Of a stretch of 64,000 bases of DNA, positions 7,358-33,496 are shown in pieces. The first letter of the stretch is position 1; every line of letters begins with the position of its first letter. The stretch is from Liquidambar formosana (lineage: Eukaryota > Streptophyta > Magnoliopsida > Saxifragales > Altingiaceae). The notes below the pieces were generated by a model that saw only the letters and a list, made by a program, of their open reading frames with translations, had not been told where the DNA came from and searched no databases. Made by a program: the position numbers and the translations under genes. Location of the stretch: the NCBI GenBank assembly GCA_039720395.1, contig CM077832.1:17641850-17705849 (forward strand), in the 5' to 3' direction.

Positions 7358-8982
7358 ATATCACATCAAGAATTGCATACATATTATATATTCCATTCAT
7401 CAATCCATGCACAATAACCAAAATAAATAAAACAAAAAGAAAACTAGCTAGGATACTTGGATCCTAAGGCGGACTTGAACCTCAAAGCGAGCGCCTACGT
7501 ACCATGCAACGAAAAACATGGATCAAAGTCCACGTAGTTCATTTAGAATTAGGGTTAAATCCTAATATAAACCTATGGTAGAAACCCTAAGTTTCCTTAG
7601 AAATGATAGAAAGTTTGTTAAGTAAACCAAGTTTGAAATCAAGAGACTTCCACAGGATGAAAACTTTGATAAAAAGGGTATTTTATTTAACAAGGAAGCC
7701 TTTGGTAATTAACCTAAATTCATATTAAGAAATAACCCTATACAGAAAGGGAGAGGAGAGAGATTAGGGATAGAAATTTAGGGCACTTTTGTACCCTACT
7801 TACTTTGTGCAATTATTTCCAAGCAAAAGCAAATTTAAGCAATAGTAGCCCTATTTGCAATAAGGCAATTATCGCACCTGTTTGTACCCTTACACGTGCT
7901 CAAAACCATGCAAAACAATGATATATAAATCTGGACAGAATAGTACTAAAGCCTAAAATCATCCATTACTCACTGCAAATAACATAAGTAATGAATTAAC
8001 ATAAACCCTAATACAACCCTAATACCATGACATGCATGAAAACCCTAGAAATCCACTAATAATGAATGCAAAAATTATCATAGCTATTCTATATGCAATA
8101 CATATATGACAACCATGAAGAAAAACCAATAAAAAACCCTAACCTAGCATGCGATATGCAACTTACTTAAAACAAGGATAATAGAAACTCTAAACTCACA
8201 AACATGCATTAAAACCTATAGAATAACTCTAAAACATGCTATAATCATCATGAACAGCCTTTATTACATGTATATTAACTAACTAAAGCATTAATACATA
8301 ATAAAAAAAACTCAACTTTAGCATGCAATAGGCCTATTCTATAAGAAAACCCTAATTTTAGCATTGAAAGGGATAGAACATACCTTAGGAAAGCTTCCTT
8401 CGCTACTGTAGAGACTCTCTCTTTCACTTGTGAATGATTGGAATCAAACTTCTTCAAGGCTATAGCAAGAACTTTAACTCTCCGTCAGTTCTCTCTCTCT
8501 CTTAGAACTTAGGTTTAATGCATAAAAGTAGCTCCCCTAATGCTGAAACATAGTAGGGTATTTATAGAGTTTAATTGGGATAAATCAATGGCTAGGATTA
8601 AAACCCTAATAATTAATTCAAGGGTTATTAGAGACTCCCTTGATGCTTAAGGAACTCAAAAGTTACTAAAAATTAGGAAGGAAACTCATCTAAAAGAGCC
8701 CTGGTCAGTCAAAATAGGGAAGGAATCCCATTTTAGCAAAAATAGGCAAGTGGTCTCGGGTGACCACTAGGGCCTGGGCGGCTAGCCTCCCGGGATTAGG
8801 GGGTCACCCGAGCCTGCTCTAGTTTTTTCCCTTTTTTGGACTTTGTTGCCTTATAGGAGTGTTTTAGGGGTCAAATTAACTCCGATTTTGATGAAATAAA
8901 AGCCAAAACGACCATATTTCGATGAGAAATACATTTTTAAACATTTTAGGGTGAAAACCACTAAAAATGGGTGCATGGTTAG

Positions 8983-12040: not shown

Positions 12041-12582
12041 GTTTTACAAAGATAGTTAACCACTATGCACTACATTTGCAAAGCATAGGTATGCACATAG
12101 GATTGAACCAAATGCTTTCCAAACCAAAATTGAATATTCCAAAACAATTTTAGGGATAAAATAAAGACTATTTAAAGTTAATTTGAGAAGAATTGATTGG
12201 TAATTGTGAGTTGAATTGAGCCAACCCAAAGTGGGTTAATTAACTAACTTAAATCATTGTGAGCCATTTTAATCCTAAGCCATTGATTCATCAAATTGAA
12301 TCTAGAAACACCTCATTTGCATCAATATGAAGTCCAATTGACAATTTGGGGATCATTTTAAGGTCAAATGAAAAGTTTGTGGACCTAAAAGACGATTATA
12401 CCCCTCAAGTCACAAAAGCTTTTATTAGCTCTCAAGATCAACTCCAAATTCAACCAAAATTCATACCCATCATCCTTATGACTCTAAAAACCAAATGCAA
12501 GTGACTAGACTCGAAAACAAAATAAAAACCTAAATGGAATGAAAAACCTTAGTAAGGAGGTACAAAAATGGGGTGTAATACG

Positions 12583-12703: not shown

Positions 12704-12708
12704 GATAT
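12704..12708. other. Target-site duplication GATAT (left)
   Basis: Five bases directly before the LTR start TGTGAACC, identical to 33492-33496. Confidence 0.9.
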
Positions 12709-15700
12709 TGTGAACCCCGGAGATCGGGCCCACGAGGGATTGGCGAGAAGATTCGCGCGGGTTTAGGTTTTGAAAAGAAAAGAAAAGGAGTCGCCACCTT
12801 ATTTTTTAAAGGAAACAAGGAAAACCCTAAAAAACAGTTTTGTTTTAGGAAAACAAAATAATGACTCCACGTTTAAAAATGGTAAGGCAAATGATCTTTT
12901 GGAAACCAGAGAATTCGGGGATTTGGAGGCTAAGTTACGATATGGGAAGGTTCTAGGCAAAGCCTATAGGCACCCATATCGCCCTAAACGGTCTCTTAAT
13001 TTAATTGGGCTAAATCAAAGTCTTAATCACACACAAATCAACAATTATCATCATAAGACAGCATGCATATCATTCATTCATTCATCCATATAGTCAAGTA
13101 AATCAAAGAAAAACAGAAAAAAAGAAAGGGGGAGAGGAGAAAACCTAGGATACTTAGTATCCTAGGGCGGACTTGAACATCACGAAGAGCGCCTACGTAC
13201 CATGTATGGAAATACATGGATCAAAGTCCACGTAGTTCGAAAGGGAATAGGGTTATAACCTAATCAAGGCCTATGGTAAACCCTAAGTTTCCTTTCAAGT
13301 AAAACATGGTAAGTTTCCAAAATAAATGATTCCCAAAAGATTTTTGGTAAAATATGGGACTTTGATAAGAAATGGAAACCTTGATTCAAAAGGTATTTTT
13401 TATTGAAAGGAAACTATAGAATCTACCATACCCCTCTATTAGGAAACAACCCTAGGGGGGGGGGAGAAAGGGAAAGTTTCAAAGGAAGGAAAGAAGGGTG
13501 AATTGGGGCACCCTCACACCCTACTTACCTTAAGCAAAAGCAACCTGTCAAAGTAACCACCCTATTGCATAGGGTAATTACCTTATTTGTAAGATTTCAT
13601 CTCACAATAGCCAAAATAACCACCCCACATTGGTGGGGTAGTTGCACCTGTTGTACCTGTCAAAGCACCTGCAATTTCCATGCAAAACATACCAAAATAC
13701 CAACCAAACAAGCTAGATTCCAAATCAAGCCATTATCATGCCCAAACATGGGCTAACACATGCTCAAAATATCATATCAAGGACAACTAACAGATCTGGA
13801 CAGAATTGAAATAAGGTTTAAAATCAACCACAAGTCATGCAACAACATGAATCATAAGCTAACTAAAACCCTAATTCAACCCTACATGCAATGTCATGCA
13901 AAAAAACACTAAAATCCACTACTATGAATGCAGAAGAGTGTCATAGTTATCAAATATGTAGCACATATATATCAACTATAAAGAAAACACAAAGAAAAAC
14001 CCTAAGCTATCATGCTATATGCTACTTTCCTAATACAAGGATGAATGAAACCCTAGAATCACCATTGTGCTCAAAATCACATAAAATAACTCTAAATCAT
14101 GCAAAACTCATTGTGGACATCATTTTAATCATGCATATTAATCAATAGAAGCATCAACACATGATAAAAACACAAGCTTGCACATGAAATATAGCTATTC
14201 TAAGTAAAAACCTAATTTCAGCACAAGAGAAACCCTAAAATTGCAAACATGCATTAACTCACATGGGATAGCATCCTAGCATACTAAACAACCCATAAAC
14301 ATTATCCTAATCATGCATACTAACTAATAGAAGTAACAAAACACAATAAAAACACAAGCTTCAATATGCAAAAGTGTTATTTCATGTAGAAAACCAATTT
14401 CAGCACTAAGGAAACCCTAAAGTCCCAAACATGCAGTAAATCACATGGAATAGCATCCTAGCTTACTAAACAGCCCATGAATATTATCCTAATCATGCAT
14501 ACTAACTAATAGAAGCAACAAGATATGATAAAGACACAAACTTGAACATGAAATAATGACTATTCCATGTAAAACCCTAGAAAAGACTCTAAAAAAACCC
14601 TAAAAACACAAACACTCATAAAACCACATAGAATGACATTATATCATGCAAAACCAGCCATAAACAATATCCTAATCATGTATTCTAAGCATTGGAAGCA
14701 TCAACACATGATAAAACAATAAGCTTTTAACATGAAGTAATGCAAAGCTATGCAAAAACCCTAGTTTGAATGAAAGAGAGAGAGGGGAAGGGGTATACCT
14801 ATGGTGGCTGCTGTAGAGAGTCCTCCTCTTCTTATGTGCTGCTGGAAATTCCTTCCTTCAAGCCTTCAAGCCAAACTCCAGCCCTCCTTTAAGCTTTCTC
14901 TCACACTCTCTCACTCAAAGTTTAGGTTAAACTACCCTAAGGATGGCTGCCATAGCCTCCAATATGCCTCTCACTTCAGAAATTTTGCCTCCCCCCCCCA
15001 TTGCTGAAGTATAAGGGGGTATTTATAGGGATTGTGGGAAAACCCTCAATGGTTGGGATTAAAACCCTAGGGATTGATCCAAGGGCTCTTAGAGGTTCCC
15101 TTGGGGCTCAAGTAGGTCAAAAAGGGCTGAAATTAAGGTTAAATGGCGGCTAAAGGCGAGCAAATCCGAGGAAATAGGGAAGGAGCCGCGTCAAGGCTCA
15201 AAAAAGGAAAGTGGCTCGGGTGACCACCTGGGGCTGGGCGGCTAGCAGCCTGGGCCCAGGCGGCTAGCCGCCCAGGCCTGGGTGGTCACCCGAGGCCTTG
15301 TCAGCTTATGCCCATATTTGACCCCTTCGGCTTCCAAATGCGTTTCGGGGTTCAAATTAACTCCGATTTTGACGAAACGAAAGCCAAAACGACCGTGTTT
15401 CGAAGGGGAATGTAATTTGAGTCACTTGAGGGAAAGAAACCCTAGCCATGGGTGCATGGTTGGGCCCTACAAAGGTGGTTAACCGCTATGCCTCACCATC
15501 GCTTATCTTAGGTATGCACATAGGGTCGCACCGAATGCTTTCCAATTCGAAATTCAACCTCCCTAAACACATTTGGGGATGAAATTAAGACCAATCAAGG
15601 TCAAATGAGTAGTCATAGAGTGAAAATCATGAACCAATTCGGGCTATCCCGAAGTAGGTCTTTTAGCCAACCTGGGCCTTGTTGAGCCATTCTAATCCCG

Positions 15701-16001
15701 AACCTTCAATTCATCGAATCGAACCCACAAATACCTCAAATACAACCATATGAACTCCAGTTGGCAACTTGGAGATCATTTCAAGGTCAAATGGAAAGTT
15801 TGTGACCAAAAAGACGATTATGCCCCTTAAGTCACAAAAGTTCTTATTAACCCTCAAGATCAACTCCAAATCGAACCAAAATTCATACACACCATCCTTA
15901 GGACCCTGGAAACTCAATGCAAAAGACTAGACTCAAAAAGGAAGCAAAAAGACACATGCAATGACAAACCCTAGCTAAGGTGACAAAAATGGGGTGTGAC
16001 A
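12709..16001 (-). repeat. 3' LTR of the Tat-lineage element
   Basis: 3,293 bp, TG...CA ends. A minus-strand TATA box (tataaata) lies at 15027-15020 and the 80-nt palindrome at 15215-15294. The short open frames at 12770-13093, 13565-13756, 13891-14148, 14801-15007 and 15282-15482 recur at the same place in the other LTR. They have no recognisable domain and run against the element, so I do not call them genes. Confidence 0.95.
15215..15294. promoter_or_regulatory. 80-nt GC-rich palindrome in 3' LTR
   Basis: Identical counterpart of 32705-32784, 188 bp upstream (minus sense) of the TATA box at 15027-15020. Confidence 0.8.
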
Positions 16002-16014
16002 GAAGCCCCTCATT
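16002..16014 (-). promoter_or_regulatory. Polypurine-tract-like sequence before 3' LTR
   Basis: Minus strand reads AATGAGGGGCTTC directly before the 3' LTR start TGTCACACC. It is purine-rich but not a clean tract. The position is right for plus-strand priming. Confidence 0.45.
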
Positions 16015-16221
16015 GGTGAGCAAGTTTCACTTGCAAGCCAATGACCAAAAGAACAACCCATTTTTGCCCGGGGAATTGATTTCATCAAGACCCACTGGGG
16101 AAAGGAGGGTGACCATATCATCGAATTCTTCGAATTCATCATACACAAGCACAAAGGTACTCTTCATAAGTTCTACAGAACTCTTCTCATACTGTATACT
16201 AGTTTCACTGGGGAACAAGAT

Positions 16222-16548
16222 GAGGTATCCATAGCTTACATCGAACTTCGTTCAATGAAAGGTCTTCCCATACTATGCCAGTGACAACTGGTGAATAGTA
16301 CGAGGTATCCATAGCTTACATCGAACTTCGTTCGGTGAAAGGTCTTCCCATACTATACCAGTGACAACTGGTGAATAGTATGAGGTATCCATAGCTTACA
16401 TCGAACTTCGTTCGATGAAAGGTCTTCCCATACTACACCAGTGACAACTGGTGAATAATATGAGGTATCCATAGCTTACATCGAACTTCGTTCAATGAAA
16501 GGTCTTCCCATACTATGCCAGTGACAACTGGCGAATAGTACGAGGTAA
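16222..16548. repeat. Four tandem copies of an 80-bp repeat with two hairpins each
   Basis: Units start at 16222, 16302, 16382 and 16462 (gaggtatcc) and a fifth breaks off at 16542. Each unit contains CATCGAAC-TTC-GTTCGATG (stem of 8, loop of 3; some copies with one change) and CCAGT-GACA-ACTGG flanked by TACTAT/ATAGTA. It lies next to the 3' LTR in the element's tail. Confidence 0.85.
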
Positions 16549-16554
16549 CACAAT

Positions 16555-17000
16555 GTCGTCAAGGCTATTTCAAAATATGAGAAAGATACATCCTTCTCAT
16601 ATTCAAACCATCAAGGTTATCATTCAAATATCAAGGTAATCACATAACACGAGAAAGATCACGTCCTTCTCTTGCTCAAATCAATCAAGGTAAACACATA
16701 CCACAGGAAGCCATCAAGGCTATCTCAAAACATGAGAAAGATACATCCTTCTCATATTCAAATCATCAAGGTTATCATTCAAATATCAAGGTAATCACAT
16801 AACAAGAGAAAGAGTATGTCCTTCTCTCGCCCAAATCATCAAGGTAAACACATAGCATGAGAAAGACCGCGTCCTTCTCATAATCAAACCATCAAGGTAA
16901 ACACAAGTCATGGGGAAAGATTGCATCTTTCAAGTCATCAAGGTAGGCATGTAATCATGAGAAAGATTGCATCTTTCTCTCACTAAGTCATCAAGACAAA
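16555..17000. repeat. Imperfect 150-bp and shorter repeats (catcaaggt / gagaaaga / tccttctc)
   Basis: 16558-16705 and 16708-16853 are near copies. Shorter half-units continue to about 17000. Each holds gagaaaga...tccttctc, an 8-base inverted pair. No coding frame. Confidence 0.75.
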
Positions 17001-17424
17001 GGTAAGCTTCTACTCACCAACACACAACAAGTTCACCAAGTCATCTCACATGGAGGCTATTCATGCCTCAACTCAAACACCAACTCATATAGGAGACACA
17101 ATTATCTCATGAAAGCAATCATTCACATGCATATAGGGAAGGTATCTTTATCCCAAAAGACAACAAATCATAGTGACATAGGAGGGAATTCATCCCTAAC
17201 AATCAAAACCATATGCATAGAGAGGGTTGTTCAACCCTACTAGCATGCCATGCCCACACAAGGGCCACCAATGCAATCTCATTCAAATCATTTCATGTCA
17301 AACAAAGTCAAGATTTTTATTCATTTTTCAACTCAAAACAAGCTTGATAATCCATCTCAAAGAAGGTTCAAAAGCGCGAATAGGCGAGCAAAGGCCAAAC
17401 GAGCGCAACGGAGCGAGCAAGGGG
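17001..17424. other. Non-coding tail sequence upstream of the PMD gene
   Basis: No repeat or gene recognised. The open frames at 17227-17531 overlap the palindrome and show no domain. Confidence 0.5.
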
Positions 17425-17498
17425 GGGTAACCACCTGGCTGCTGGTGGCTTGCCGCCCAAGCCCAGGCGGCTTGCCGCCCCATGCTGGGCGGTTACCC
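17425..17498. promoter_or_regulatory. Diverged copy of the palindrome upstream of the PMD gene
   Basis: Outer arms GGGTAACC / GGTTACCC, inner GGCTTGCCGCCC blocks, 74 nt. It lies 300 bp before the PMD gene ATG, within a stretch suited to a promoter and leader (17500-17797). Confidence 0.65.
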
Positions 17499-17797
17499 GA
17501 GGCTAGGGTCCTCCAAAATCTGGGTTTTTAAACCCTTGACCCCCATTTGATGCACACACACACCCAATTCGAAAATAGAGAGTTTCTCTCTCTAGAAACT
17601 CATTCCATCTTCTCCAAACACTCACAAACACATTCTCAATCAAAGTTTCACTTTCAATTCAAGTTGTGTGCATGAAATAGCATCAAGAACAAGTCATTCA
17701 ACAACAAAAACAAGCATCAATCATCAAATTGCAAGATCAAATTCATCATCTTTCTTATCAAACCCATTTTTCACACATACAAGCTCAACCACCAACA

Positions 17798-20460
17798 ATG
17801 GCTTCTAGCAATGATTCCAACATCAAGTATCCATATTATGTGATCAAGAATACATACAAGGCACCAATCTATGATGCATCCCAAGACAAGGTGTTGCTTG
17901 AACCCAAGAAACATCTCTCATACCTCCATTCCCAACATGAGGTTAGTTCTTCCCAACTTAACATGTTTATCTTGAAATCTTGATTTCTATTGGATAAAAT
18001 GCATTCCCATGATCTTCTCTTGATTGTTTTTATCATTGTTAAGCCAAGTTCATTGATTTGGCAAGGATTGAATGTGTAAAATGCTTGTTTCCCAATGCTT
18101 GAGAAAAGATGCCCACCAAGTGTTTGATAAAATGCCAAAGAGACAAAAACATGTTCAATTCTTGAAAAATCAATTGGTTTGCATTGTAGCACAAAGTCAA
18201 ATGGTCTTGGCAAGGATTTGGTAAACAAAAATCTTTCATTTCAATGCTTGAAAACAAGTCACACACCAAGTGTTTGACAAAATGCTCGAAAGGCAAAAAC
18301 ATGTTCAATCCTTACAAAATCAATGAATTTGAATACACAAAGTCATGGGCATTCATTTCTAATTCATTTCATGAATCAAAACCCATATTTTAAAACTTTT
18401 GGAAAACCATTTGAAATCAATTACCAATGTATGCCCAATATCTCTATGTTTTTAATGCTAACTCAATACACAATCTTTTGACATAGCCCGACTTCCAAGG
18501 TCTCCGTACAAGGACATCAATAAAGGGGCTCATCTCATGGTGGAGATATATAGAACATGCCCAACCACGTGCTCGCAAGATAATAAAAAAGGCGGGTTTT
18601 GGGCCCTTCCTAGATGCTCTATGGAACGAGCAATGGGATAGGCAAGCATTGTTTGCCTTGACAGAGCTATGGTGGGACACCACCAACACTTTCCATTTTA
18701 GCTTCGGGGAGATGACCATGACTCCTAAGGACTTCACCATGATAACTGGGTTGAGCTTGAAAGGTAAGCGCTTGGAATACTATGAACAAGCCAACATGGA
18801 TCAAAACTACATAGTAGCTCTACTCGGGGTTGAAGCGGAATTAAGCCCAAAAGGTGTGCGCCGTACTTGGCTCTACAACACCTTTGCCACTGAAGAAGAG
18901 AGTGAGGGGACGGATCCCAAATACATTGTGAGAGCTTTCTTGCTCTACACGATTTCATGCACCTTCTTTGCGGGCACCAATGACATGGCTCGACTTGAGT
19001 TGCTAGCTAGCATGGAAGATGTGAACAAAATTGGGAGATACAATTGGGGTGGAGCTGCTTTCGCAAACATGTATCGCTCCATGACTGACATGTCCCGAGG
19101 AGTTGCAAAGAACTTTGGGGGACTTCCTTTCGTTTGGGAGGTAACAAAGAACATTCAATTCTCTATTATTTCCCGAAACTTAACACACACATGATTTCAT
19201 CTATATTTTTTTTGGTTTTCCCCAGATATGGTACTACGAGTACCTGAACATGTGTCGCCCAACTCTTGCTAGTGATGCCATGTCATGGCCCATCCTTCAG
19301 AACTATGCTCCATCTTGCTTGGCTACAAGAGCCGCCAATCGCCATGATTATGCCCATGCAAGGGCATATCTTGCCAGCTTGACTGCTGATATGGTAGAAT
19401 CTTTCTTTCTCCTTATCTTTTTATCTTTCTTTTTTCATTTCTCATTTCAAACTCAACAGGTGGAATGGGATCCATGGAGGTTGTGGGAGCATAGGCTTCC
19501 CAAGAAGTACTCCTCTTGTTTGGAGTTGACAAGCAAAAGGGTCCTTTTTGAAGGCCCCACAGGTAGATGCTGGTATCTTGGGGAACGAGTCCTAAGACAA
19601 GTCCATGGAAATATGAATGCAGCTGTGACACCTTCCATGCCACCAGAGAACATGAGGCACACTAGCCACCTAGTGGGGGATGAACTAGAAGAAGCTCTGA
19701 GGGGTTGGGATGCTGAGGGATTCACCTCCCCTCGCATAGAATACACTACCTTCTGTCGACAATATCTGATGAATCCTAGGGTCACTGGTCTCCCACCTCA
19801 AGGGGTGAGCTCCCCACACTCTTAAACTCTTTTTTAAGATTATAAGAAAGACTCCATTTGACAAGCATTTGAATTTCAGGGCCGACGGGCAAGGGGACAC
19901 AGCTCCACAGTTGGATCTGCCACTGGGATGACTTACAACGACGAGGATGAGGACCTTGAAGGAAATCAACCTCCACCCCTCCCACAACTAAATTGGTATG
20001 TGAACTTGTGCAATGGGACAAAATTTGTGAAGACTGACATTACCCATCCACCGTTCGATGAATATCCCAAGATCGATCCATATTATGAGAATGTGAGTTC
20101 TAAACTCTTATCCTCTTGAAATTGGATTCTTTCATTATTGTTAACCATGTTTATACTTTCCTAGGTTCCACGGGAGTATGCCCAGGAATGCATTGAACTC
20201 AATGAAGGATTGAGGAGGGATCTTGTGCGAATGAGTTTAGAGAACTCAGTTCTAGAAGCACGCTTAAATCCCCAAGTGAGTGATCATCTTATTAGCTTTC
20301 AACTAGGATTGGCACCATTACCCTCCTAACTCATTATCTTTGTTTGCAACAGGCATCATCATCTAATCCACCACAGGATATGCCCCCTTCTAGAGCACCT
20401 CGTTCAGGGCATGATGGAGCTGGGCCAAGTCGAAAGAGAAGGCCCACGGGAAATCATTGA
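17798..20460 (+). CDS. Antisense 7-exon plant mobile domain (PMD) gene inside the retrotransposon
   Basis: Exons by GT-AG reading: 17798-17941, 18487-19140, 19226-19393, 19460-19804, 19880-20092, 20165-20275, 20353-20460. They give 580 codons with no stop, and all six introns are phase 0. Residues about 60-330 read as a plant mobile domain (the aminotransferase-like PMD of the MAIN/MAIL family): KAGFGPFLDALWNEQ, HTFHF-like TFHFSFGEMTMTPKDFTMIT, then TWLYNTF and RAFLLYTISCTFFAG. Exon 6 is a short charged helix, probably coiled coil. The C-terminus is basic (GPSRKRRPTGNH), a likely nuclear signal. PMD proteins of plants act in gene silencing and genome stability, and PMD genes are known to be carried by transposons. 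Its role here is unknown. It runs opposite to gag-pol and lies in the tail after integrase. I place the start at MASSNDSN (17798); the frame extends upstream with an alternative ATG at 17729. Confidence 0.85.
17942..18486 (+). other. Intron 1 of the PMD gene
   Basis: Donor gag|gttagt, acceptor ttttgacatag|ccc, 545 nt. It contains two diverged copies of a tgcttg...caagtgtttgataaaatgc segment (18080-18310). Confidence 0.7.
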
Positions 20461-20713
20461 GTTTCACTCACCTCTTGTTAGGAATGTTGGAACCTTTCTA
20501 TCTATCTTGTTATGTATTAATTAGGAATTTCAATTCCCAACCTTGAACCTTTATTATGGATACTTGATGAATCTATGTTCGAACTTTATTGCAATGATAT
20601 GATCTTGTATTGAGTGAAAAATGGGCTTAAATCAAGCACAAAAGAGTCAAAACATCACAAAAGGGCCAAACGAAGGCATAACAAGGCAAAAATGGGCGAA
20701 ACAAGACGGCGGT

Positions 20714-20793
20714 CTCGGGTGACCACCTGGGGCTGGGCGGCTAGCCGCCTGGGCCCAGGCGGCTAGCCGCCCAGGCCTGGGTGGTCACCCGAG
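20714..20793. promoter_or_regulatory. 80-nt near-perfect palindrome upstream of antisense gene 2
   Basis: Centre at 20753/20754 (GGGCCC). Of 40 arm positions about 37 pair. Outer arms CTCGGGTGACCACC / GGTGGTCACCCGAG; inner arms GGGCGGCTAGCCGCC / GGCGGCTAGCCGCCC. It could fold as a hairpin in RNA or single-stranded DNA, or bind a dimeric protein. Confidence 0.8.
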
Positions 20794-20880
20794 CCCGAAG
20801 CGGTGTTTCGCCTGATTTTAGGAAACTTCCTATTTTGACGGGATTCCACCTTCCAAAACACAGATTTCTGAATTTTTTCC

Positions 20881-20888
20881 TATAAAAG
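20881..20888 (+). promoter_or_regulatory. TATA box of antisense gene 2
   Basis: tataaaag, 56 bp before the ATG at 20937, leaving room for a short leader of about 25 nt. The 80-nt palindrome ends 87 bp upstream. Confidence 0.6.
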
Positions 20889-20936
20889 CACATCCAAGGG
20901 GTCTCAAACCCTACTAACATTCATTGAAAGCAAGTT

Positions 20937-22223
20937 ATGGAAGCCCTAGACAAACTCTTGAGTGATTTTCTGAAAGTTATGAGTGTGGGGGCAAGGAAGG
21001 AGTTCAAGCGCTACTGCTTGGATCCGTTGCTTTCTTTGATGCATGTGAAGCTTGAAACCACTCTTCTTACTGCTGCTACATATTTTTGGGATCCCCAACT
21101 TCATGTATTCTGTTTCAACTATGAAGAACTATGCCCAACAATGGAAGAGTTCTGCGCTTTGTATGGAGTTTCACCTGTAGGACCTTTCATCCTCCCTACT
21201 CCACGCTCAAGTTACTTGATTTCCTTCTCCAACTTCCTTGGGATTTCTCAACAAGAGGCCTCCATATTTGTGAAGGATCATAAGGTGAATCTCATGGAAA
21301 TAGCAACTTCCTTCTTGGCTCATGATAGCAAAGGTACCTTGGATTTCAACCTTCCTACTCAACATGCTCTTGCTTTCTGCTTGGTTGGTCGCTTCCTTAT
21401 CTCCACGGGGACTCTCTATGTCCCTATTCAAATTTGTGAACTGATCCCTTTTCTTCTTGAACACAACAACCTGATTCCCATAGTGCTAGCTGAAACCCTC
21501 AATAGTTTAGACAAAGTTCATGATAACCCACAAGCCCCATTAAGAGGGAGCCCCGTTCTACTGCAGATGTGGCTTCTTGAAAGGCTTAACTTCTTATCTC
21601 CTACCACCATTAATCCATACAAACCCCAACATTATTGTTGCCGTTGAGTTGAACTTCCTGGTCAATTTTCTTTGAGGGAATGGTTGGGCTACTTCCAAAC
21701 TCTCTCATGGCGAAACATCAGGTGGTTTGTCTCCACATGGGGATGCAAGGAACAAATTCTTCTCCGAACTTCTGGGTGTGCTATGGTCAAGCTCATAGGG
21801 TTGAGATCAACTTCATTCTATTGGACTTCAAGAATCCTTCGTCAAATGGGTGCCATGCAAACCATACCTACTTCTGTGGTATTTGATCATTCTGTCGAAC
21901 CCGTGGGCCCCACAATGGTTAAGTGGGCCAAGACTAGATGGACTGACCAATTGAAACTGACTCGAGTTGAAAACACTGATGGGCCTTATGTCATGAGCCC
22001 TGAATACAAGACATGGTTGAAGACTAGCTTGGGTGAAAGAGAAACCATACGCAGGGAAAGGATTTATGACCTTATCAAGGACACAAGACTTGGATTTTGC
22101 AGGGAAGACATTCTGGAAGCAGTGGAAGCAGCACATGCTCATGACTTACGAAAGAAGCGAAGACTTGAAAGAAAGGAGCAGAAAGCAAACCAAGAGACTC
22201 TGAAGAAAATCAAAAGGACTTGA
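20937..22223 (+). pseudogene. Second antisense gene, PMD-like (DUF7745-type), one internal stop
   Basis: A single 429-codon frame from ATG 20937 to TGA 22221-22223, broken only by TGA at 21645-21647. The sequence before and after stays in the same frame. The N-terminal half has TAATYFWDPQLHVFCFNYEE, LCPTMEEFCALYGV and QHALAFCLVGRFLI. The C-terminal half has EWLGYFQTLSWRNIRWFV, RILRQMGAMQTIPT and MSPEYKTWLKTS, then a basic helix (RKKRRLERKEQKAN). This pattern matches the plant retroelement family that I know as DUF7745, a relative of PMD; the name is from memory. TATA at 20881 and AATAAA at 22277 suggest its own transcription unit. The internal TGA may be a mutation or an error. Function unknown. 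Confidence 0.75.
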
Positions 22224-22276
22224 AGACTTTAGAAATAGCATATCTATGGCATGTCAATAGTTCTTTATCTAACATC

Positions 22277-22282
22277 AATAAA
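22277..22282 (+). terminator. Polyadenylation signal AATAAA of antisense gene 2
   Basis: AATAAA 54 bp after the stop codon of the second antisense gene, in an AT-rich 3' region. Confidence 0.45.
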
Positions 22283-22573
22283 TTGCTATGTCAATCAATT
22301 AGTTCTAAATGAATTGCCAATAATAATTCAATTTTGAGATTTGTTGTTGTCGTGTTGTTTGGACCGCACCCAAGGTAACTTTATGGGTTGCCTACGTATC
22401 CCCATCTTTTTTTCATTTTTTTCATTTTTTTCATTTTTCTCTTTTTTTCTTTTTTTTTTCTTTTTCTTTTCTTTTTTCTGTTCCTTTTTTAGGAATGGGG
22501 AATCAGGCCCTCGTAGTTCAAATGCCTTAACTTTTGCCTAGGCCGCCCTTATGGGTTTTCAACCTAGCAGGCC
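22283..22573. other. Convergent spacer between antisense gene 2 and integrase
   Basis: Holds a long T-rich run (about 22407-22486), which on the minus strand is an A-rich tract just after the integrase stop. No gene. Confidence 0.6.
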
Positions 22574-24640
22574 TTACACATAATACTTCTTCAATTGATC
22601 CAAATTGGTAGGGCGAGCGAACTCAATTCCATCCAAATCCATGAGGCGAACAGCCCCTGCTGGTAATATCTCCTTGATAACATACGGGCCACCCCAACTT
22701 GGCTTGAACTTCCCTTGTGGATCAAAAATTGGAGCTCTGATTTCTTTCAACACCAAATCCCCTGTCTTCAAACCTCGGTCTCTGACATGCTTGTTGAATG
22801 CTCTCGCAACCCTTCGCTGATATCCCTGCACATGATACAAGGCCCTCAATCGCCTTTCATCGAGCAATGCCAGCTCATCATAACGGTTCTTAACCCAATC
22901 TGCTTCTGCTATCTGACTTTCCACAGCAACTCGTAATGACGGTACCTCCAACTCAATAGGCAAAACAGACTCCATCCCATACACCAAGGAATAAGGGGTA
23001 GCCCCTGTTGACGATCTCACAGATGTTCTATAGCCCCACAAGGCTAATGGCAACTTCTCATGCCAATCAGTGTAGGTGTCAGCTGTTTTCTGTAATATCT
23101 TCTTAACATTCTTGTTGGCGGCCTCCACTGCTCCATTAGTCTGCGGGCGATAAGGGGAGGATAAATGGTGCACTATGTTGTATTTCTGCAAAAGCTCCTT
23201 GGTTTCTTTCTGAAAGTGCTGACCATTGTCTGAAATGATCTCATGGGGTACCCCATACCTGTAGATGATGTTGAGCTGTATGAACTGTGCTACCTTCTTG
23301 GCGTTCAGGGTCTTGAAAGATGCTGCCTCTACCCACTTAGTGAAGTAATTGATAGCTACCAAGATGTACTCATGCCCATTGGAGGCTTTCGGCTTAATCT
23401 GTCCAATTATATCTATCCCCCACACTGCAAACGGCCAAGGCGACGACATGCTTGTCAAAGGCATGGAAGGCAAGTGTTGTCCATTAGCAAAGACCTGACA
23501 TTTGTGACACTTCTTAACATGTGCATGGCAATCTCTCTCCATTGTAGACCAATAGTAGCCCAACCTCATGATTTTCTTAGCTAGCATATAACCATTCATG
23601 TGCGGTGCTCCAACTCCTTCATGGATTTCACTAACAAGACGTTCGGCTTCTTCCTCAGTGACACACAACAGATGGACCCCATCGTATGACCTTCGGTATA
23701 GCTTTCCTCCACACAAAACATAGTGACTCGCTAGCCTCCTCAGTGTTCTCCTATCAATGCGGGTTGCTCCTTCAGGATACTCCCTTTCCTCGATGAATTT
23801 CATGATATCATAGTACCAAGGATGGCCATCTTTCAACTCTCCTTCTCGAATAGAACAGCAATACACAGGTTTTTCTCTACATTCTATCACCAACGGTTTT
23901 ACATTCCCACCATCCGGGATTTCCACCATGGAAGCTAGAGTTGCCAAAGCATCGGCGAACTGATTCTTATTTCTTGACAGATAATTGAACTCTATTTCCA
24001 CAAATTCTTTAGTCAAGGCTTCTAAGTATGCATGATATGGCAGCAGCTTCTCATCACGAGTCTTCCACTCTCCCTTTATCTGGCAGATAATCAGTGCTGA
24101 ATCTCCGAAAACCTCTAACTCTTTGATCCCCAATTCTAGTGCAGCTTCCAACGCAAGGATGCAGGCTTCATACTCAGCAATGTTGTTGGTTGCTTCAAAC
24201 CCTAGCTTAACTGCCAAGGGTGTAAATGCTTCTTCAGGTGAAACCAACAGAACTCCTATCCCATACCCTCTCTTATTTGCAGCTCCATCGAAGTATACCT
24301 TCCAAATCTTCTTTCCAATCTCCAGGACATCCTCATCGGGAAATTGGTCATTAAATTGTTCTGATGACGCCACAGGGCAGCTAGCCAAGTAATCTGCAAT
24401 GACACTTCCTTTTACTGACTTCTGGGTTACATACTTTATGTCGAATTCATTGAGAAGAATTGACCAATGAGCAGTTCTGTAGGACAAGACCGGCCTTTCT
24501 ATCAGGTACTTCAGTGGATCCATTCGGCTTATCAAGAAAACCTCATACGACATCATGTAGTGACGGAGTTTCTGAGTTGCCCATACCAAAGCCACACAAG
24601 CCTTCTCTATGGCATTGTACTTCACCTCATAGTCTGTCAT
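22574..24640 (-). CDS. pol: Dual RNase H and integrase of Pol
   Basis: Follows RT after a frameshift, with the first ATG at 24640. Residues 1-95 are the retroviral-type RNase H/connection (MTDYEVKYNAIEKACVALV). Residues about 110-245 are a second, archaeal-type RNase H (VYFDGAANKRGYGIG, NIAEYEACILALEAAL, FGDSALIICQI, FADALATLAS), giving the D-E-D-D set. Two RNase H domains are diagnostic of the Tat lineage. Integrase follows: an HHCC finger (HMNGYMLAKKI...CHAHVKKCHKC), then DDE with GIDIIGQIK, ISDNGQHF and NGAVEAANKN, and a basic C-terminal fold (GDLVLKEIRAP, PYVIKEILPAG). It ends at a TAA (22576-22574) and faces the antisense gene 2 tail to tail. Confidence 0.93.
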   Translation of the reverse strand: MTDYEVKYNAIEKACVALVWATQKLRHYMMSYEVFLISRMDPLKYLIERPVLSYRTAHWSILLNEFDIKYVTQKSVKGSVIADYLASCPVASSEQFNDQFPDEDVLEIGKKIWKVYFDGAANKRGYGIGVLLVSPEEAFTPLAVKLGFEATNNIAEYEACILALEAALELGIKELEVFGDSALIICQIKGEWKTRDEKLLPYHAYLEALTKEFVEIEFNYLSRNKNQFADALATLASMVEIPDGGNVKPLVIECREKPVYCCSIREGELKDGHPWYYDIMKFIEEREYPEGATRIDRRTLRRLASHYVLCGGKLYRRSYDGVHLLCVTEEEAERLVSEIHEGVGAPHMNGYMLAKKIMRLGYYWSTMERDCHAHVKKCHKCQVFANGQHLPSMPLTSMSSPWPFAVWGIDIIGQIKPKASNGHEYILVAINYFTKWVEAASFKTLNAKKVAQFIQLNIIYRYGVPHEIISDNGQHFQKETKELLQKYNIVHHLSSPYRPQTNGAVEAANKNVKKILQKTADTYTDWHEKLPLALWGYRTSVRSSTGATPYSLVYGMESVLPIELEVPSLRVAVESQIAEADWVKNRYDELALLDERRLRALYHVQGYQRRVARAFNKHVRDRGLKTGDLVLKEIRAPIFDPQGKFKPSWGGPYVIKEILPAGAVRLMDLDGIEFARPTNLDQLKKYYV

Positions 24641-24648
24641 CTTCTTGC

Positions 24649-25945
24649 TTAAATGGCATTCTCCCTTTTCGACCCCTCAAGGTACTGAGCTAGCATAGCT
24701 CCCGTCGCGGTTTCAGTGACCGTCAAGTATAACAATAACGGTTCACCTTGTCGCGGGGGAACTAGAATTGGTGGATTACTCAAATACCTTTTAATAGTTT
24801 CAAAGGCTTCTTGACATTCTTCATTCCATACCTTCGGCACACCCTTCTTAAGCAACTTGAAAATCGGTTCACACACCATGGTCAAATTACCAATGAACCT
24901 GCTTATGTACTGAATTCTCCCCAAGAACCCTCGAATCTGCTTCTCTGTGCTAGGCGGCTCCATCCCCACAATGGGCTTGATTTTTCCCGGATCAACCTCA
25001 ATTCCTCTCTGAGTAATCATGAATCCTAATAGCTTGCCTGCAGTGACACCAAAAGCGCATTTCTGAGGATTCAACCGCAAGTTGTACTTCTTTGCTCGCT
25101 CTAGGAACCTTTCCAGTGCCCTGAAGTGTCCTTCTCGATCCACGGACTTCACGATCATGTCGTCCACATATACTTCCGCCTCCTTATGGATCATGTCGTG
25201 CAGCAATGTTGTAGCAGCTCTCTGATAGGTAGCCCCGGCATTTCTCAAACCGAACGGCATCACTTTGTAACAATATGTTCCCCACTGTGTGATAAAGGCT
25301 GTTTTTTCCATATCTTGCGGCGCCATCTTTATCTGATTGTATCCGGAAAACCCATCCATAAAAGAGAGGAGCGCATGTCCTACAGTACTATCTACCAATA
25401 CATCAATGTGGGGCAAAGGAAAATCATCCTTAGGGCTTGCTGCATTAAGGTCTCGAAAATCCACACACATCCTCACTTTTCCATCCTTTTTAGGCACGGG
25501 CACTATATTGGATAACCATTCCGGATACTCCACAACCTGCAGGAACCCCGCATCGAGTTGCTTGGTTACTTCTTCCTTTACCTTCAATGCCCACTCGGGT
25601 TTCAATCTTCTCAATTTTTGCTTTACCGGCTTTTTAAGGGGATTGGTGGGGATGAAGTGCTGCACAATGTCTGGATCTATGCCGGGCATGTCTTCATAAG
25701 ACCATGCAAAGGCCGTTATGTTGGCCTTTAGGAGGGCTATCAGCTTTTCTTTTTCAAGTGGTGAAAGGGTTATCCCAATTTTAATTATCTTTGGCAATTC
25801 ATTTGTCCCTAAATTGATTGATTCCAATTCATCCATGTTAGGTTCGGTGACACCCCTTTTCCTTCGCTCGACGAGCTCCGGGGGAACGTCATTCCTAGGA
25901 TCTATATCCATGCCATAAATATCCATAGAAGAGAGAAAGGAAACA
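24649..25945 (-). CDS. pol: Reverse transcriptase domain of Pol
   Basis: Synthesises element cDNA. All core RT motifs are present: WLSNIVPVPKKDGKVRMCVD, SFMDGFSGYNQIKM with the first catalytic Asp, MPFGLRNAGATYQR, and YVDDMIVKS with the catalytic Asp pair, followed by the connection/thumb (LGFMITQRGIEVDPGKI). The natural start is the intron acceptor at 25946, not the ATG at 25977. The frame stops at TAA 24651-24649, directly before the RNase H domain resumes two frames over with SKKMTDYEVKYNAIEKA. Comparison of the flanking codons suggests a loss of about seven bases near 24645-24650. The lesion disconnects RT from RNase H and integrase. Confidence 0.92.
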
Positions 25946-26125
25946 CTGCAAGCAAACCATGTATAAAAGAAACACACTTCATTAAAGGATCAAACAAAAA
26001 GACACAAACTTGAAAAGGAAACAAAATTTGGTGCCACAACTATGAAACGACTCCTAACTCCACAAAGTGGGATAGGCGGACACACTTTATTGAAAGCAGG
26101 AAAGACTTCTAACTAAGGAACCTAC
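25946..26125 (-). other. Putative 180-nt intron between protease and RT
   Basis: On the minus strand the donor is GTAGGT (from 26125) and the acceptor is TTTGCTTGCAG (ending 25946). The exon ends join in frame, bridging the stop at 26124-26122. Ogre elements are known for an intron exactly here; splicing would separate Gag-Pro from Gag-Pol production. Not tested on RNA. Confidence 0.7.
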
Positions 26126-27456
26126 AAGCTACTATCAGGCAGGTCATGATCTTCCTCTTCAAGGATCTCTGCAATGGCTCCATCTTCTAGGTACCAATTA
26201 TGAAGCGGCATGGTTGCATGGTGAATTGACGAATCTTGGCAATCTTCTGTTGCTGACTCCCCCAAAGTAAGAACCATATCTTGGAACATGGTGACCATGG
26301 TTTCAGAATCCATGTGCTCCACCCAGTCTTCTTCTTTCTTCTCCCAATAACTGTCATTGATGGCTTCATCATCCACGATTTCGGCGGTGATTGGATACCA
26401 CTCGGTGAAGAAAATCTCAAATCCTAGGATTCTGATCTTGGTTTTTGGATTGAACATAGGCTCTGGGAACCCACAGTACAGGAAGTCATCTCCCTCCTTG
26501 ATAAAATAGCCATTCAGAGTCGGCCTGTATGGTGAAATCTTAAAGTCTGGCACCCTTCCTTCTGCTCTAGCTTTTCCCTTCTCCTTATTCCTCCTTGTCA
26601 TTTCTGCATAGTCATTCTTAGTGGGCTCATATCCTAACCCAAAAGTGTAGGAAACAACCCGACTTTGAACAGAATGGGGAATTCCTTGTTGGCGACGCCC
26701 TAGGCCCATACCCGGGAAGAAATTCATTTTCCGCATTATCTCACCAACATGTAAATTACCATGGGGACAATAGTCAAGGGGGATCAGTTCTTCCTTTTCC
26801 AACTCCTTTTCAATGCATTGCACATACTCAAACCCCGACAAGGGTATCTCAACTGATTCTGGTTTTATTTCGCATATGGGTACACCCGCCATTTTCAAAT
26901 CATAATCCCCTTGAAGTGTAACAACGGCTCCCTCATGTGGGAACTTTACCTTTTGATGCAATGATGATGGTACAGCCCCAGCGGGATGAATCCAAGGCCT
27001 TCCCAATAATAGATTAAAACATGACGGCACATCCAAGACTTGAAACTCCACTCTGAACTCCGTGGGTCCCATGATTAAAGGTAGAGTGATCACCCCAATT
27101 ACTTCTCTACGGGTATTATCATACGCCCTCACTGTCTGCCCAGATGGAGTGAAATCAGTGGGCCCCAAGCCCAAAACAGTTGCAGTTCTCAAGGGACATA
27201 CATTCAACGCGGAACCATTATCAATCAAGACCGTAGGAACTCTCTTCCCCATGGTATCAACAGTTATATGCAAGGCTTGGGAGTGGCTTGGCCCACTCTT
27301 AGGTAAGTCCGCCTCTGTGAACACTATAGTGGAATTCTTCGGAGCAGGGTTTACTAGATTCACCAATCCCTCAGGGGACAAATCAACCGGAACCTGTATC
27401 TGGTTTAACAACTTCAGCACTGTCTGTCTGTGTTTGTGAGAGGCCATAAGCAAGCC
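26125..27456 (-). CDS. pro: Retropepsin-like aspartic protease with G-patch
   Basis: Cleaves the polyprotein. The active-site region reads VLIDNGSALNVCPL, the DNG variant of the retropepsin D-[ST]-G found in Tat elements. The flap and second conserved region (FNLLLGRPWIHPAGAVPS) follow about 80 residues later. Further on is a G-patch-like segment (MRKMNFFPGMGLGRRQQGI), a glycine-rich RNA-binding motif also found after protease in some retroelements. It begins directly after the TAG at 27459-27457, with the first ATG at 27447. The frame ends at TAG 26124-26122, but a GT at 26125-26124 opens an intron that would remove that stop and join to the RT exon in frame. Confidence 0.85.
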
Positions 27457-28272: not shown

Positions 28273-29454
28273 TTAGTGGAATTTGCAGTATTCATTCTCA
28301 TTGTAGCTCTTGGGCAATGGGTTTGGTGGTGGTCTTGGGTCGAGAGGTTTCAACAGGCCTCGGCTTTTTAGCTTTTCAAGTACTTTCTCAAGTGGCATAT
28401 GCAGCTCGGTGAATTGGCGAGGTGGGTTGGTGTCATTTAGGGAGATAGGTTGAATGGGTTGGGCTATGGCATTGACCTCGGCATTTTTCCCAGCAAAGTT
28501 CGGCCTGCGGCTCTTTTGGACTTCTTCTGTCTTGATTGACCCATCGGCAATGGCATCCTCAACTTGTGTACCTGCTCCGATAAGAGCCTTGAAATTAGGG
28601 AAGTAGTGAGCAAAGAGGTGCTTGTGATATACCGGCAATAGGTTCTTAACCACCAACTGAATCTGATCTTCCTCATTCGGTCTATCTGCCATTCTCGAGG
28701 CCTTTTGCCTCCACCTTGTAATGAAAGCAGAAAAGGTCTCATTAGCCCCTTGTTTTGTGGTCTCTAGGTCCCTTCTTGTGACATCCACCTCAGTGTTGTA
28801 CTTGTAGTGCTCTGAAAACTCATTACATATGTCCTCCCAAGTTCGGGTTCTATTCTCATCCAAGGCTAGGAACCACTTTAAAGCGGAAGTGGCTAGGGTT
28901 TCATGGAACATTTGGGCCAAGAGTTCATCTGTCGCTCCTCGAGGGTGCATAGCTCGTACATACATTTTCAAATGGGTCTTGGGGCAACCCGTTCCATCAA
29001 ACTTTTCTAATTCGGGCATCTTGAATTGTAATGGAATACGAGCTTGAGGGAACAAAGATAGGGTACGTACATCCACCATGTCATCTGTCCTACGGATTCC
29101 CTTTATAGTTCTCTCCAAGGCTTCTACCTTACTAGCCAATACAGAGTCTGTATCAGAGGTCTTCCCCTTACTTCCCCCTTCTAGGTTAAAAACTTCAGGT
29201 GATTCATTCCCTTTGGGCTGAGTGCTTCCCCCATCATTGGTCTTAGTGCCTTCTCCAGACTGGGTCCCATTTTCGGTGTTATCCCCCGGGGTACGGCCAT
29301 TATTCTGTTCAGGTTCGGACATCTTATGTTGGATATCTTGGGCCATTTTCAATGCTCTCTCGGATACATCAGTGGTGTAATCAAGTTTGGTCATGATAGC
29401 CTTCAAACAAGTCTCAACATCAAAACCCCCTTCTCTAGTTGCTTCATCGGCCAT
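28273..29454 (-). CDS. gag: Gag capsid region (Retrotrans_gag), ends at in-frame stop
   Basis: The structural polyprotein that packages element RNA in cytoplasmic particles. I take the start as the first ATG (29454, MADEATREGG); the frame is open a little further up to a TGA but has no earlier ATG. The acidic, low-complexity N-terminus is followed by the Retrotrans_gag core from about residue 110, with FKMPELEKFDGTGCP, a tryptophan-rich ALKWFLALDE and an FITRWRQKASRM helix. The frame stops with TAA at 28275-28273 inside the first zinc-knuckle-like module (CKFH, stop, AKGHSTNRC). Translation continues in the same frame to 27457 without other stops. The stop is therefore a single-base-type lesion (a CAA or AAA codon would fit), not the natural end of gag. 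Confidence 0.9.
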   Translation of the reverse strand: MADEATREGGFDVETCLKAIMTKLDYTTDVSERALKMAQDIQHKMSEPEQNNGRTPGDNTENGTQSGEGTKTNDGGSTQPKGNESPEVFNLEGGSKGKTSDTDSVLASKVEALERTIKGIRRTDDMVDVRTLSLFPQARIPLQFKMPELEKFDGTGCPKTHLKMYVRAMHPRGATDELLAQMFHETLATSALKWFLALDENRTRTWEDICNEFSEHYKYNTEVDVTRRDLETTKQGANETFSAFITRWRQKASRMADRPNEEDQIQLVVKNLLPVYHKHLFAHYFPNFKALIGAGTQVEDAIADGSIKTEEVQKSRRPNFAGKNAEVNAIAQPIQPISLNDTNPPRQFTELHMPLEKVLEKLKSRGLLKPLDPRPPPNPLPKSYNENEYCKFH

Positions 29455-30180
29455 GTCTGACTGGTTGGTAGAATCAATCTTCACTAAGCGCCCTTGCTGG
29501 TCGCGGATTCAAGCCAGTACGTCTTCTCACTCCTCTAAGAAAGGGAACAATCAGTCTCTCATCCTAAGGGTATGTCCTAGGCTTCCATATTTGTCTCAAT
29601 GACTTCACGCCATATATACTCAATTAGTCCCTTTTAATCCAATCACCTTTACAAGGGTCATGGGTGAAAGGTACGTATTAAGGATATAGGGTGCAAAGGT
29701 CCTCTATTAATTGTCCATTAAGCACATCACAAGCACGGTCATGATATCATTACAAACAATGTGGGTGCATAAGGGTGAAACCATAGTGTCCTACAAGGCT
29801 GTCTATATGGACTAATGATAAGGGTAGGCTGGGGTCCTTCACTTGCTTGAGCAATCTTTATACCTAACCACATGTGGCATCAGGAACGCCGCGTGGGTCC
29901 AGCAGTACGTGATTAACTCATTTAATATACCCAAGGGCAAGCCCAAGGGTACTTGGCAAGAGAGGTTGAGAGCTTTCGCCCCAACTCATGGAATCAGGAA
30001 AACCAAGGTTGAGGCTAGGCCCGTCAGTGGCAAGGGACATCGATCCTAACATGCAAGAGTTTGCGCACACAATGCAATAAATGAAAGCACACAATCAAGC
30101 GGATGCAATGTGATTGATTTTAATTAAACAAAAGAAATTAACTTAGCCCAATCAAATTGTATAGAGTCTAGCCCACAAAT
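29455..30180 (-). other. Leader between primer site and gag
   Basis: About 0.7 kb with no supported gene. Classic Ogre elements have an extra ORF here; this interval is too short for it and its frames are closed. Confidence 0.6.
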
Positions 30181-30197: not shown

Positions 30198-32509
30198 GTC
30201 TGTGAACCCCGGAGATCGGGCCCACGAGGGATTGGCGAGAAGATTCGCGCGGGTTTAGGTTTTGAAAAGAAAAGAAAAGGAGTCGCCACCTTATTTTTTA
30301 AAGGAAACAAGGAAAACCCTAAAAAACAGTTTTGTTTTAGGAAAACAAAATAATGACTCCACGTTTAAAAATGGTAAGGCAAATGATCTTTTGGAAACCA
30401 GAGAATTCGGGGATTTGGAGGCTAAGTTACGATATGGGAAGGTTCTAGGCAAAGCCTATAGGCACCCATATCGCCCTAAACGGTCTCTTAATTTAATTGG
30501 GCTAAATCAAAGTCTTAATCACACACAAATCAACAATTATCATCATAAGACAGCATGCATATCATTCATTCATTCATCCATATAGTCAAGTAAATCAAAG
30601 AAAAACAGAAAAAAAGAAAGGGGGAGAGGAAAAAACCTAGGATACTTAGTATCCTAGGGCGGACTTGAACATCACGAAGAGCGCCTACGTACCATGTATG
30701 GAAATACATGGATCAAAGTCCACGTAGTTCGAAAGGGAATAGGGTTATAACCTAATCAAGGCCTATGGTAAACCCTAAGTTTCCTTTCAAGTAAAACATG
30801 GTAAGTTTCCAAAATAAATGATTCCCAAAAGATTTTTGGTAAAATATGGGACTTTGATAAGAAATGGAAACCTTGATTCAAAAGGTATTTTTTATTGAAA
30901 GGAAACTATAGAATCTACCATACCCCTCTATTAGGAAACAACCCTAGGGGGGGGGGGAGAAAGGGAAAGTTTCAAAGGAAGGAAAGAAGGGTGAATTGGG
31001 GCACCCTCACACCCTACTTACCTTAAGCAAAAGCAACTTGTCAAAGTAACCACCCTATTGCATAGGGTAATTACCTTATTTGTAAGATTTCATCTCACAA
31101 TAGCCAAAATAACCACCCCACATTGGTGGGGTAGTTGCACCTGTTGTACTTGTCAAAGCACCTGCAATTTCCATGCAAAACATACCAAAATACCAACCAA
31201 ACAAGCTAGATTCCAAATCAAGCCATTATCATGCCCAAACATGGGCTAACACATGCTCAAAATATCATATCAAGGACAACTAACAGATCTGGACAGAATT
31301 GAAATAAGGTTTAAAATCAACCACAAGTCATGCAACAACATGAATCATAAGCTAACTAAAACCCTAATTCAACCCTACATGCAATGTCATGCAAAAAAAC
31401 ACTAAAATCCACTACCATGAATGCAGAAGAATGTCATAGTTATCAAATATGCAGCACATATATATCAACTATAAAGAAAACACAAAGAAAAACCCTAAGC
31501 TATCATGCTATATGCTACTTTCCTAATACAAGGATGAATGAAACCCTAGAATCACCATTGTGCTCAAAATCACATAAAATAACTCTAAATCATGCAAAAC
31601 TCATTGTGGACATCATTTTAATCATGCATATTAATCAATAGAAGCATCAACACATGATAAAAACACAAGCTTGCACATGAAATATAGCTATTCTAAGTAA
31701 AAACCTAATTTCAGCACAAGAGAAACCCTAAAATTGCAAACATGCATTAACTCACATGGGATAGCATCCTAGCATACTAAACAACCCATAAACATTATCC
31801 TAATCATGCATACTAACTAATAGAAGTAACAAAACACAATAAAAACACAAGCTTCAATATGCACAAGTGTTATTTCATGTAGAAAACCAATTTCAGCACT
31901 AAGGAAACCCTAAAGTCCCAAACATGCAGTAAATCACATGGAATAGCATCCTAGCTTACTAAACAGCCCATGAATATTATCCTAATCATGCATACTAACT
32001 AATAGAAGCAACAAGATATGATAAAGACACAAACTTGAACATGAAATAATGACTATTCCATGTAAAACCCTAGAAAAGACTCTAAAAAAACCCTAAAAAC
32101 ACAAACACTCATAAAACCACATAGAATGACATTATATCATGCAAAACCAGCCATAAACAATATCCTAATAATGTATTCTAAGCATTGGAAGCATCAACAC
32201 ATGATAAAACAATAAGCTTTTAACATGAAGTAATGCAAAGCTATGCAAAAACCCTAGTTTGAATGAAAGAGAGAGAGGGGAAGGGGTATACCTATGGTGG
32301 CTGCTGTAGAGAGTCCTCCTCTTCTTATGTGCTGGAAATTCCTTCCTTCAAGCCTTCAAGCCAAACTCCAGCCCTCCTTTAAGCTTTCTCTCACACTCTC
32401 TCACTCAAAGTTTAGGTTAAACTACCCTAAGGATGGCTGCCATAGCCTCCAATATGCCTCTCACTTCAGAAATTTTGCCTCCCCCCCCCATTGCTGAAGT
32501 ATAAGGGGG

Positions 32510-32517
32510 TATTTATA
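32510..32517 (-). promoter_or_regulatory. LTR TATA box
   Basis: tataaata on the minus strand in the 5' LTR, followed downstream by a leader. It is conserved in place in the other LTR (15020-15027) and in the old copies (6384-6391, 8569-8576), so it is the likely core promoter of gag-pol transcription. Confidence 0.6.
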
Positions 32518-32704
32518 GGGATTGTGGGAAAACCCTCAATGGTTGGGATTAAAACCCTAGGGATTGATCCAAGGGCTCTTAGAGGTTCCCTTGGGGCTCA
32601 AGTAGGTCAAAAAGGGCTGAAATTAGGGTTAAATGGCGGCTAAAGGCGAGCAAATCCGAGGAAATAGGGAAGGAGCCGCGTCAAGGCTCAAAAAAGGAAA
32701 GTGG

Positions 32705-32784
32705 CTCGGGTGACCACCTGGGGCTGGGCGGCTAGCAGCCTGGGCCCAGGCGGCTAGCCGCCCAGGCCTGGGTGGTCACCCGAG
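32705..32784. promoter_or_regulatory. 80-nt GC-rich palindrome in 5' LTR
   Basis: CTCGGGTGACCACC begins it and GGTGGTCACCCGAG ends it. The two 40-nt arms meet at GGGCCC with only a few mismatches. It lies 188 bp upstream of the LTR TATA box. The same structure precedes both antisense genes. Confidence 0.8.
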
Positions 32785-33491: not shown

Positions 33492-33496
33492 GATAT
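33492..33496. other. Target-site duplication GATAT (right)
   Basis: Five bases directly after the LTR end GTGTGACA, identical to 12704-12708. Confidence 0.9.

Follow-up and report, generated by a model that had tools for sequence, protein, structure and literature searches.

Two antisense PMD-family genes and a shared half-site array in an Ogre-like retrotransposon of Liquidambar formosana

Introduction

Why does a long terminal repeat (LTR) retrotransposon carry two PMD-family genes antisense to its own coding region, and on what DNA might their products act? These questions arise from a 64,000-nt stretch of Liquidambar formosana contig CM077832.1 (positions 17,641,850 to 17,705,849; hereafter the window), in which we found a complete Ty3/gypsy LTR retrotransposon with an Ogre-like layout on the minus strand at 12709–33491 (20.8 kb). 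An initial annotation had placed two tandem plus-strand genes, here called A and B, between the integrase and the 3′ LTR of this element. Both genes are present in that region (16002–22573), antisense to the element, and the longest stop-to-stop stretch there measures 239 codons on the plus strand and 123 on the minus strand.

Results

Genes A and B represent two distant PMD families

The gene A model (17798–20460) consists of seven predicted exons that join into an intact 580-aa frame. All six introns are GT-AG and in phase 0; five are 66–85 nt long and one is 545 nt, and GC content is 0.27–0.39 in the introns as against 0.45–0.51 in the exons by codon position. Five of the six junctions are backed by annotated L. 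formosana proteins: P0001 aligns without gaps to residues 278–580, spanning junctions 3 to 6, while P0002 spans junction 2 and, no more than one residue away from junction 3, where a 66-nt intron lies here, contains 23 additional residues. Because the gene runs opposite to the genomic RNA, these introns would outlast transposition.

The initial annotation had assigned both genes to related PMD/DUF7745 folds and proposed profile searches, which bore the assignment out. Gene A matches PMD (PF10536) at 121 bits (E 8e-35; curated cutoff 34.9), and 17 of 17 relatives found among 7994 scored candidates also match this profile. The first of two gene B pieces matches DUF7745 (PF24924) at 41.8 bits (cutoff 26) and PMD at 39.4 bits (cutoff 34.9), and the second matches only the end of PMD, at a sub-cutoff 18.7 bits. 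The search with gene B returned 5 matches among 2376 candidates, and 15 among 4420 with the alignment as query; at E <= 0.001, DUF7745 is matched by 15 and PMD by 12 of these 15 proteins. Full-length 428-aa relatives are intact, namely P0018 (at 93%; PMD 55.5 bits, DUF7745 58.3 bits) and P0019 (at 76%). Two gene B relatives, P0024 and P0025, are short pieces filed under Modestobacter lapidis and Geminicoccus harenae, and are probably plant contamination of bacterial assemblies.

The A and B family profiles align with each other (hhalign probability 96, E 4.9e-9, 280 columns), indicating distant homology along the domain. The two proteins themselves are 21% identical across 215 columns (E 7e-4), and they fall into separate tree groups with support of 100/99, a split that is partly built in, since the tree is midpoint-rooted, has flagged long branches and was filled with the matches of separate A and B searches plus A and B themselves (31 of 34 rows; P0023, P0025 and P0032, all under 250 aa, were left out). 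From this identity and these supported groups, we reject the idea that a single PMD gene was recently duplicated in tandem. On sequence grounds, A and B are therefore distant PMD relatives, two distinct families in one element.

A half-site array is shared by the LTRs and both genes

A GC-rich palindrome of 80 bp (GC 0.76–0.78) is present three times, once in each LTR and once ahead of gene B (Table 1); at a threshold of 72% of 38 pairs, the window held no further palindrome apart from an AT microsatellite. A single mismatch in 80 positions separates the B and LTR copies, and folding with DNA parameters gives z scores of -10.3 and -11.5, respectively, against shuffles. Each array is composed of four half-sites: GGTGACCACC, GGCGGCTAGCCGCC twice, and GGTGGTCACC. 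Upstream of gene A lies a decayed copy whose half-sites agree with those of the B copy at 42 of 48 positions as against 17 of 32 in the spacers (Fisher p 0.0008, with half-site borders set with the A copy in view); an older LTR copy shows no half-site bias (p 0.21). A scan of the window for the 14-base half-site with up to 2 mismatches gave 11 occurrences against 0.00 expected; 8 of the 11 lie in the element. Within the element, both the half-site core (11 matches) and the outer core (7) are confined to the four arrays. Related array copies occur in older LTR fragments at 6576, which is the matching LTR place, and at 8755.

The A copy has lost its hairpin under DNA parameters (z -0.93; 33 of 200 shuffles fold equally well), although it still forms a long one under RNA parameters (-64.2, a value without shuffles). 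A covariation test supported neither maintenance of the hairpin by compensatory change nor selection on the hairpin itself: 2 pairs had changed on both sides, a number reached by 62 of 500 shuffles. We read the array as DNA half-sites. Among ten comparisons of array flanks, the left flank of A resembled that of the LTR strongly (2 of 500 shuffles) and that of B more weakly (14 of 500), with the remaining eight at 24 to 274 of 500 shuffles.

The array upstream of gene B ends 88 nt before TATAAAA (20881), and the LTR has a second TATA match at 13971, all TATA matches being consensus matches only. From the positions of the LTR, A and B copies, it follows that an array stands upstream of all three transcription units expected here (LTR, gene A, gene B).

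A fold predicted for a gene B relative aligns with DNA-bound VANC21

The predicted fold of one intact gene B relative aligns with DNA-bound VANC21 (9lnj), and the gene B family may thus be VANC21-like in fold. DUF1985, the profile that marks VANC proteins (cutoff 35.1 bits), is reached by neither gene: gene A scores 16.5 bits (E 0.0088) and 1 of its 17 relatives matches at E 0.18, while no match was obtained in the gene B pieces or in any of the 15 gene B-family proteins. A sequence search of solved structures gave no credible match, and Foldseek against viral models gave 0 with E <= 0.001. No DNA relatives were found in viral contigs, prokaryote genomes or plasmids, non-plant collections that are little informative here, and a bacterial-type promoter scan, uninformative for plant DNA, gave no result.

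VANC21 binds short motifs in the non-coding DNA of the element that encodes it, in introns as well as in intergenic and terminal stretches, and silencing is lost there (PMC5735166, PMC10398659). A second tandem array (53 nt, 2.4 copies) accompanies the 80-nt one of Table 1 within 16222–16905, between the 3′ LTR and gene A. Since VANC targets form tandem repeats, the arrays at 16222–16905 are a second candidate target.

The element is a young Ogre-like retrotransposon

The element is flanked by a perfect 5-bp target duplication, GATAT (12704–12708 and 33492–33496), and its 3.3-kb LTRs end in TG...CA. By LTR comparison it is young, the pair being 99.5% identical with 12 substitutions and 4 gap columns in the 3290 columns compared. 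An alternative substitution rate of 7e-9 gives an insertion age of 0.26 million years (My). At 1.3e-8 per site per year (PMC6123737), the age is ~0.14 My. Older LTR fragments, 75–80% similar, lie near the insertion at 4858–7361, 8175–8982 and 12045–12576.

The domain order is gag, an open reading frame (ORF) with a G-patch at the protease position, reverse transcriptase, RNase H, second RNase H, H2C2 and integrase. In this copy gag-pol is split over five ORFs, with the integrase ORF in a different frame from the four upstream ORFs; this one ORF carries RT_RNaseH (2–66), RVT_3 (117–235), H2C2 (328–383) and rve (403–499). In the Tat lineage of angiosperms, this placing of a second RNase H, after the first and before integrase, is the layout of the clades Ogre and Retand (PMC6317226). 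The size of the element, its LTR length, its PMD genes and a 144-nt gap (25978–26121) between the protease-side and reverse transcriptase ORFs, with splice-like signals judged by eye, favour Ogre as the likelier assignment within this layout. The ORF at the protease position gave no Pfam protease match, and its G-patch domain sits just past that position on the minus strand. G-patch and PMD are frequent extra domains in gypsy elements (PMC9289625). No Rfam family reached its gathering score within the element, and no tRNA genes were found in the window.

Table 1. Features of the element, with positions in the window and the evidence for each.
Feature	Position	Strand	Evidence or remark
3′ LTR	12709-16001	-	99.5% identity to 5′ LTR, ends, duplication
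Palindrome in 3′ LTR	15215-15294		188 nt before TATAAAT (15027, minus sense)
80-nt tandem array, 4.1 copies	16222-16547		non-coding stretch before gene A
Decayed array copy upstream of gene A	17422-17501		half-sites with unchanged spacing
Gene A exon 1 (predicted)	17798-17941	+	junction 1 without coverage by a close relative
Gene A exon 2	18487-19140	+	gene model, profile match, relatives
Gene A exon 3	19226-19393	+	gene model, relatives
Gene A exon 4	19460-19804	+	gene model, relatives
Gene A exon 5	19880-20092	+	gene model, relatives
Gene A exon 6	20165-20275	+	gene model, relatives
Gene A exon 7, basic SRKRR tail at end	20353-20460	+	gene model, relatives
Four-half-site palindrome upstream of gene B	20714-20793		palindrome, half-site and fold scans
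TATA-box of gene B (TATAAAA)	20881-20887	+	consensus match only
Gene B (DUF7745/PMD), intronless, basic C-terminal tail	20937-22223	+	ORFs, profiles, relatives; AATAAA at 22277
RNase H, second RNase H (RVT_3), H2C2, integrase ORF	22574-24640	-	Pfam matches
Reverse transcriptase ORF	24649-25977	-	RVT_1 96.8 bits
ORF at protease position with G-patch domain	26122-27453	-	G-patch 23.7 bits, cutoff 22
gag ORF	28273-29484	-	Retrotrans_gag 41.6 bits
5′ LTR	30201-33491	-	99.5% identity to 3′ LTR, ends, duplication
Palindrome in 5′ LTR	32705-32784		palindrome and half-site scans

Other loci in the window

A plant disease-resistance-like locus occupies 44857–48739 on the plus strand. It includes an NB-ARC domain with a Roq1-type winged helix (45486–46595), leucine-rich repeat (LRR) ORFs (47318–47971), and an ORF upstream of the NB-ARC (44857–45288) that looks TIR domain-like by eye; a 281-nt tandem doubling, exact in appearance (47682–48246, 98%), lies inside the LRR part. 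Related tandem arrays with a unit of 161–162 nt stand 54 kb apart at 3685–4667 (6.1 copies) and 58126–59516 (8.6 copies).

Discussion

Proposed role of the two genes and the array

We tentatively propose, at somewhat less than an even chance, that this Ogre-like element carries two antisense PMD-family genes whose proteins would bind the four-half-site array and lift host silencing, as VANC21 does for VANDAL21. The A and B proteins would act as a pair, by analogy with MAIN and MAIL1 in Arabidopsis, and their target would be the array in the LTRs and upstream of both genes. Binding would open both antisense promoters along with the LTR, giving a feed-forward loop specific to the element family, perhaps by protecting the array, which is dense in CG and CHG, from methylation.

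The initial annotation had supposed that the genes form one functional unit, have promoter-like regions of their own and act against host silencing, and these suppositions are partly supported. The array common to both genes and the LTRs is consistent with a unit, gene B has its TATA match, and the modelled match of the gene B family to VANC21 suggests anti-silencing, an idea already in print for PMDs borne by transposable elements (TEs), in general terms (PMC8616336) and for Mutator-like elements (PMC5418596). Three points qualify the proposal: an in-frame TGA at 21645–21647 breaks gene B in this copy, so that A and B could act as a pair only if B were supplied by a different copy of the element; no TATA-box consensus was matched upstream of gene A, leaving its promoter unsupported; and a shared fold alone shows no function.

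A broader version, which we consider doubtful, is that PMD is a sequence-specific DNA-binding, anti-silencing fold common to retrotransposons (PMD, DUF7745) and VANDAL DNA transposons (VANC, DUF1985). The present element would then be a complete system, with two PMD subunits driven by and acting on the array that controls its LTR, and MAIN and MAIL1 would be domesticated members whose role in binding DNA has gone unnoticed. If this is true, retrotransposons and DNA transposons open their own promoters with one protein fold, and plants have turned the same fold into a silencing factor. With the VANC21 fold link and a defined candidate array in the same element, the question can be reduced to a binding assay.

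Alternative explanations

It is unlikely, though a serious prospect, that A and B are mimics of host PMD proteins, which would enter the MAIN/MAIL1/PP7L complex and weaken silencing generally without binding element DNA, the array being an ordinary promoter element read by the host. The need for that complex in TE silencing (PMC7156037) and the published proposal of TE-borne PMD counter-silencers (PMC8616336) agree with such a role, but it leaves unexplained both the array common to the three expected transcription units and the match to a DNA-bound fold.

We also think it improbable that the proteins regulate transcription of the element or transport of its particles, in the manner of retroviral accessory genes and with no anti-silencing, so that the array would mediate activation or repression (copy-number control). 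The basic tails of A and B would suit this role, as would the precedents of Grande gene23, a nuclear protein with its own promoter (PMC7264820), and of the Retand TRP28 antisense proteins, which are predicted DNA binders (PMC11963269, PMC7264820); the fold match, however, indicates an anti-silencing factor, subject to the caveat on fold and function given above.

Quite improbable is an effect of antisense RNA rather than protein, in which overlap with the genomic RNA would yield double-stranded RNA and small interfering RNAs that silence or limit the element. Such an effect has been suggested (PMC7264820), and 175 PHAS loci are reported at PMD genes of the tea plant (PMC10673657), but an RNA role needs no reading frame, so the intact spliced frame of gene A, with its conserved relatives, and the intact full-length relatives of gene B count against it.

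Very unlikely, finally, is that the PMD genes are passengers, picked up but of no use, and that the palindrome is a foldback repeat which spread within the element on its own: the separate families of A and B, the broken gene B and the near identity of the LTR and B palindromes despite unlike flanks would all fit, but PMD ORFs recur in surveyed Ogre elements (PMC6317226), gene A is intact though gag-pol lies in five ORFs, and within the element the arrays stand only upstream of each expected transcription unit.

Comparison with known systems

Several components of this arrangement are already known: PMD in Ogre elements, PMD and G-patch as extra gypsy domains, and antisense genes with their own promoter. 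Steinbauerova 2011 is cited in this literature on the PMD ORFs of Ogre elements. Such ORFs occur in 57% of the Ogre elements surveyed (PMC6317226), and PMD-A1 and PMD-A2 are Gypsy-only clades (PMC5418596). Like them, our element bears PMD as an extra ORF in a Tat/Ogre-type context; it differs in having two PMD families in tandem, both antisense, and an array in common with the LTR. Retand TRP28 and Grande gene23, in contrast, belong to another protein family (TRP28, PF04195), for which neither gene A nor the two gene B pieces gave a match to Transposase_28 at E <= 1, and gene A has six introns.

The host proteins MAIN and MAIL1 co-precipitate (PMC7156037), and, of 26 genes down-regulated in every mutant examined other than ddc, 25 share a promoter motif (PMC7156037, PMC9899485). 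Here too there are two PMD proteins and a shared motif, but MAIN and MAIL1 are host genes that promote silencing, and their direct contact with DNA or chromatin is described as unknown in the papers on them (PMC7156037, PMC9899485, PMC5418596).

VANC21 and VANDAL21 offer the likeness of a TE-borne gene, of the fold predicted for the gene B family, and of short motifs that recur in non-coding DNA of the element carrying the gene. VANDAL, however, is a DNA transposon with a motif unlike the present array; DUF1985 scores no more than sub-threshold in gene A and is unseen in the B family; and binding here is predicted. A search of the running text of the literature, outside which lay the paper behind structure 9lnj and all figures and supplementary files (among them Fig. 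6 of PMC5418596 and additional file 4 of PMC6317226), found no precedent for a PMD pair of distinct families, for the shared array or for a VANC21-like fold. What is added here to the known systems is the VANC21 fold link together with a candidate target array.

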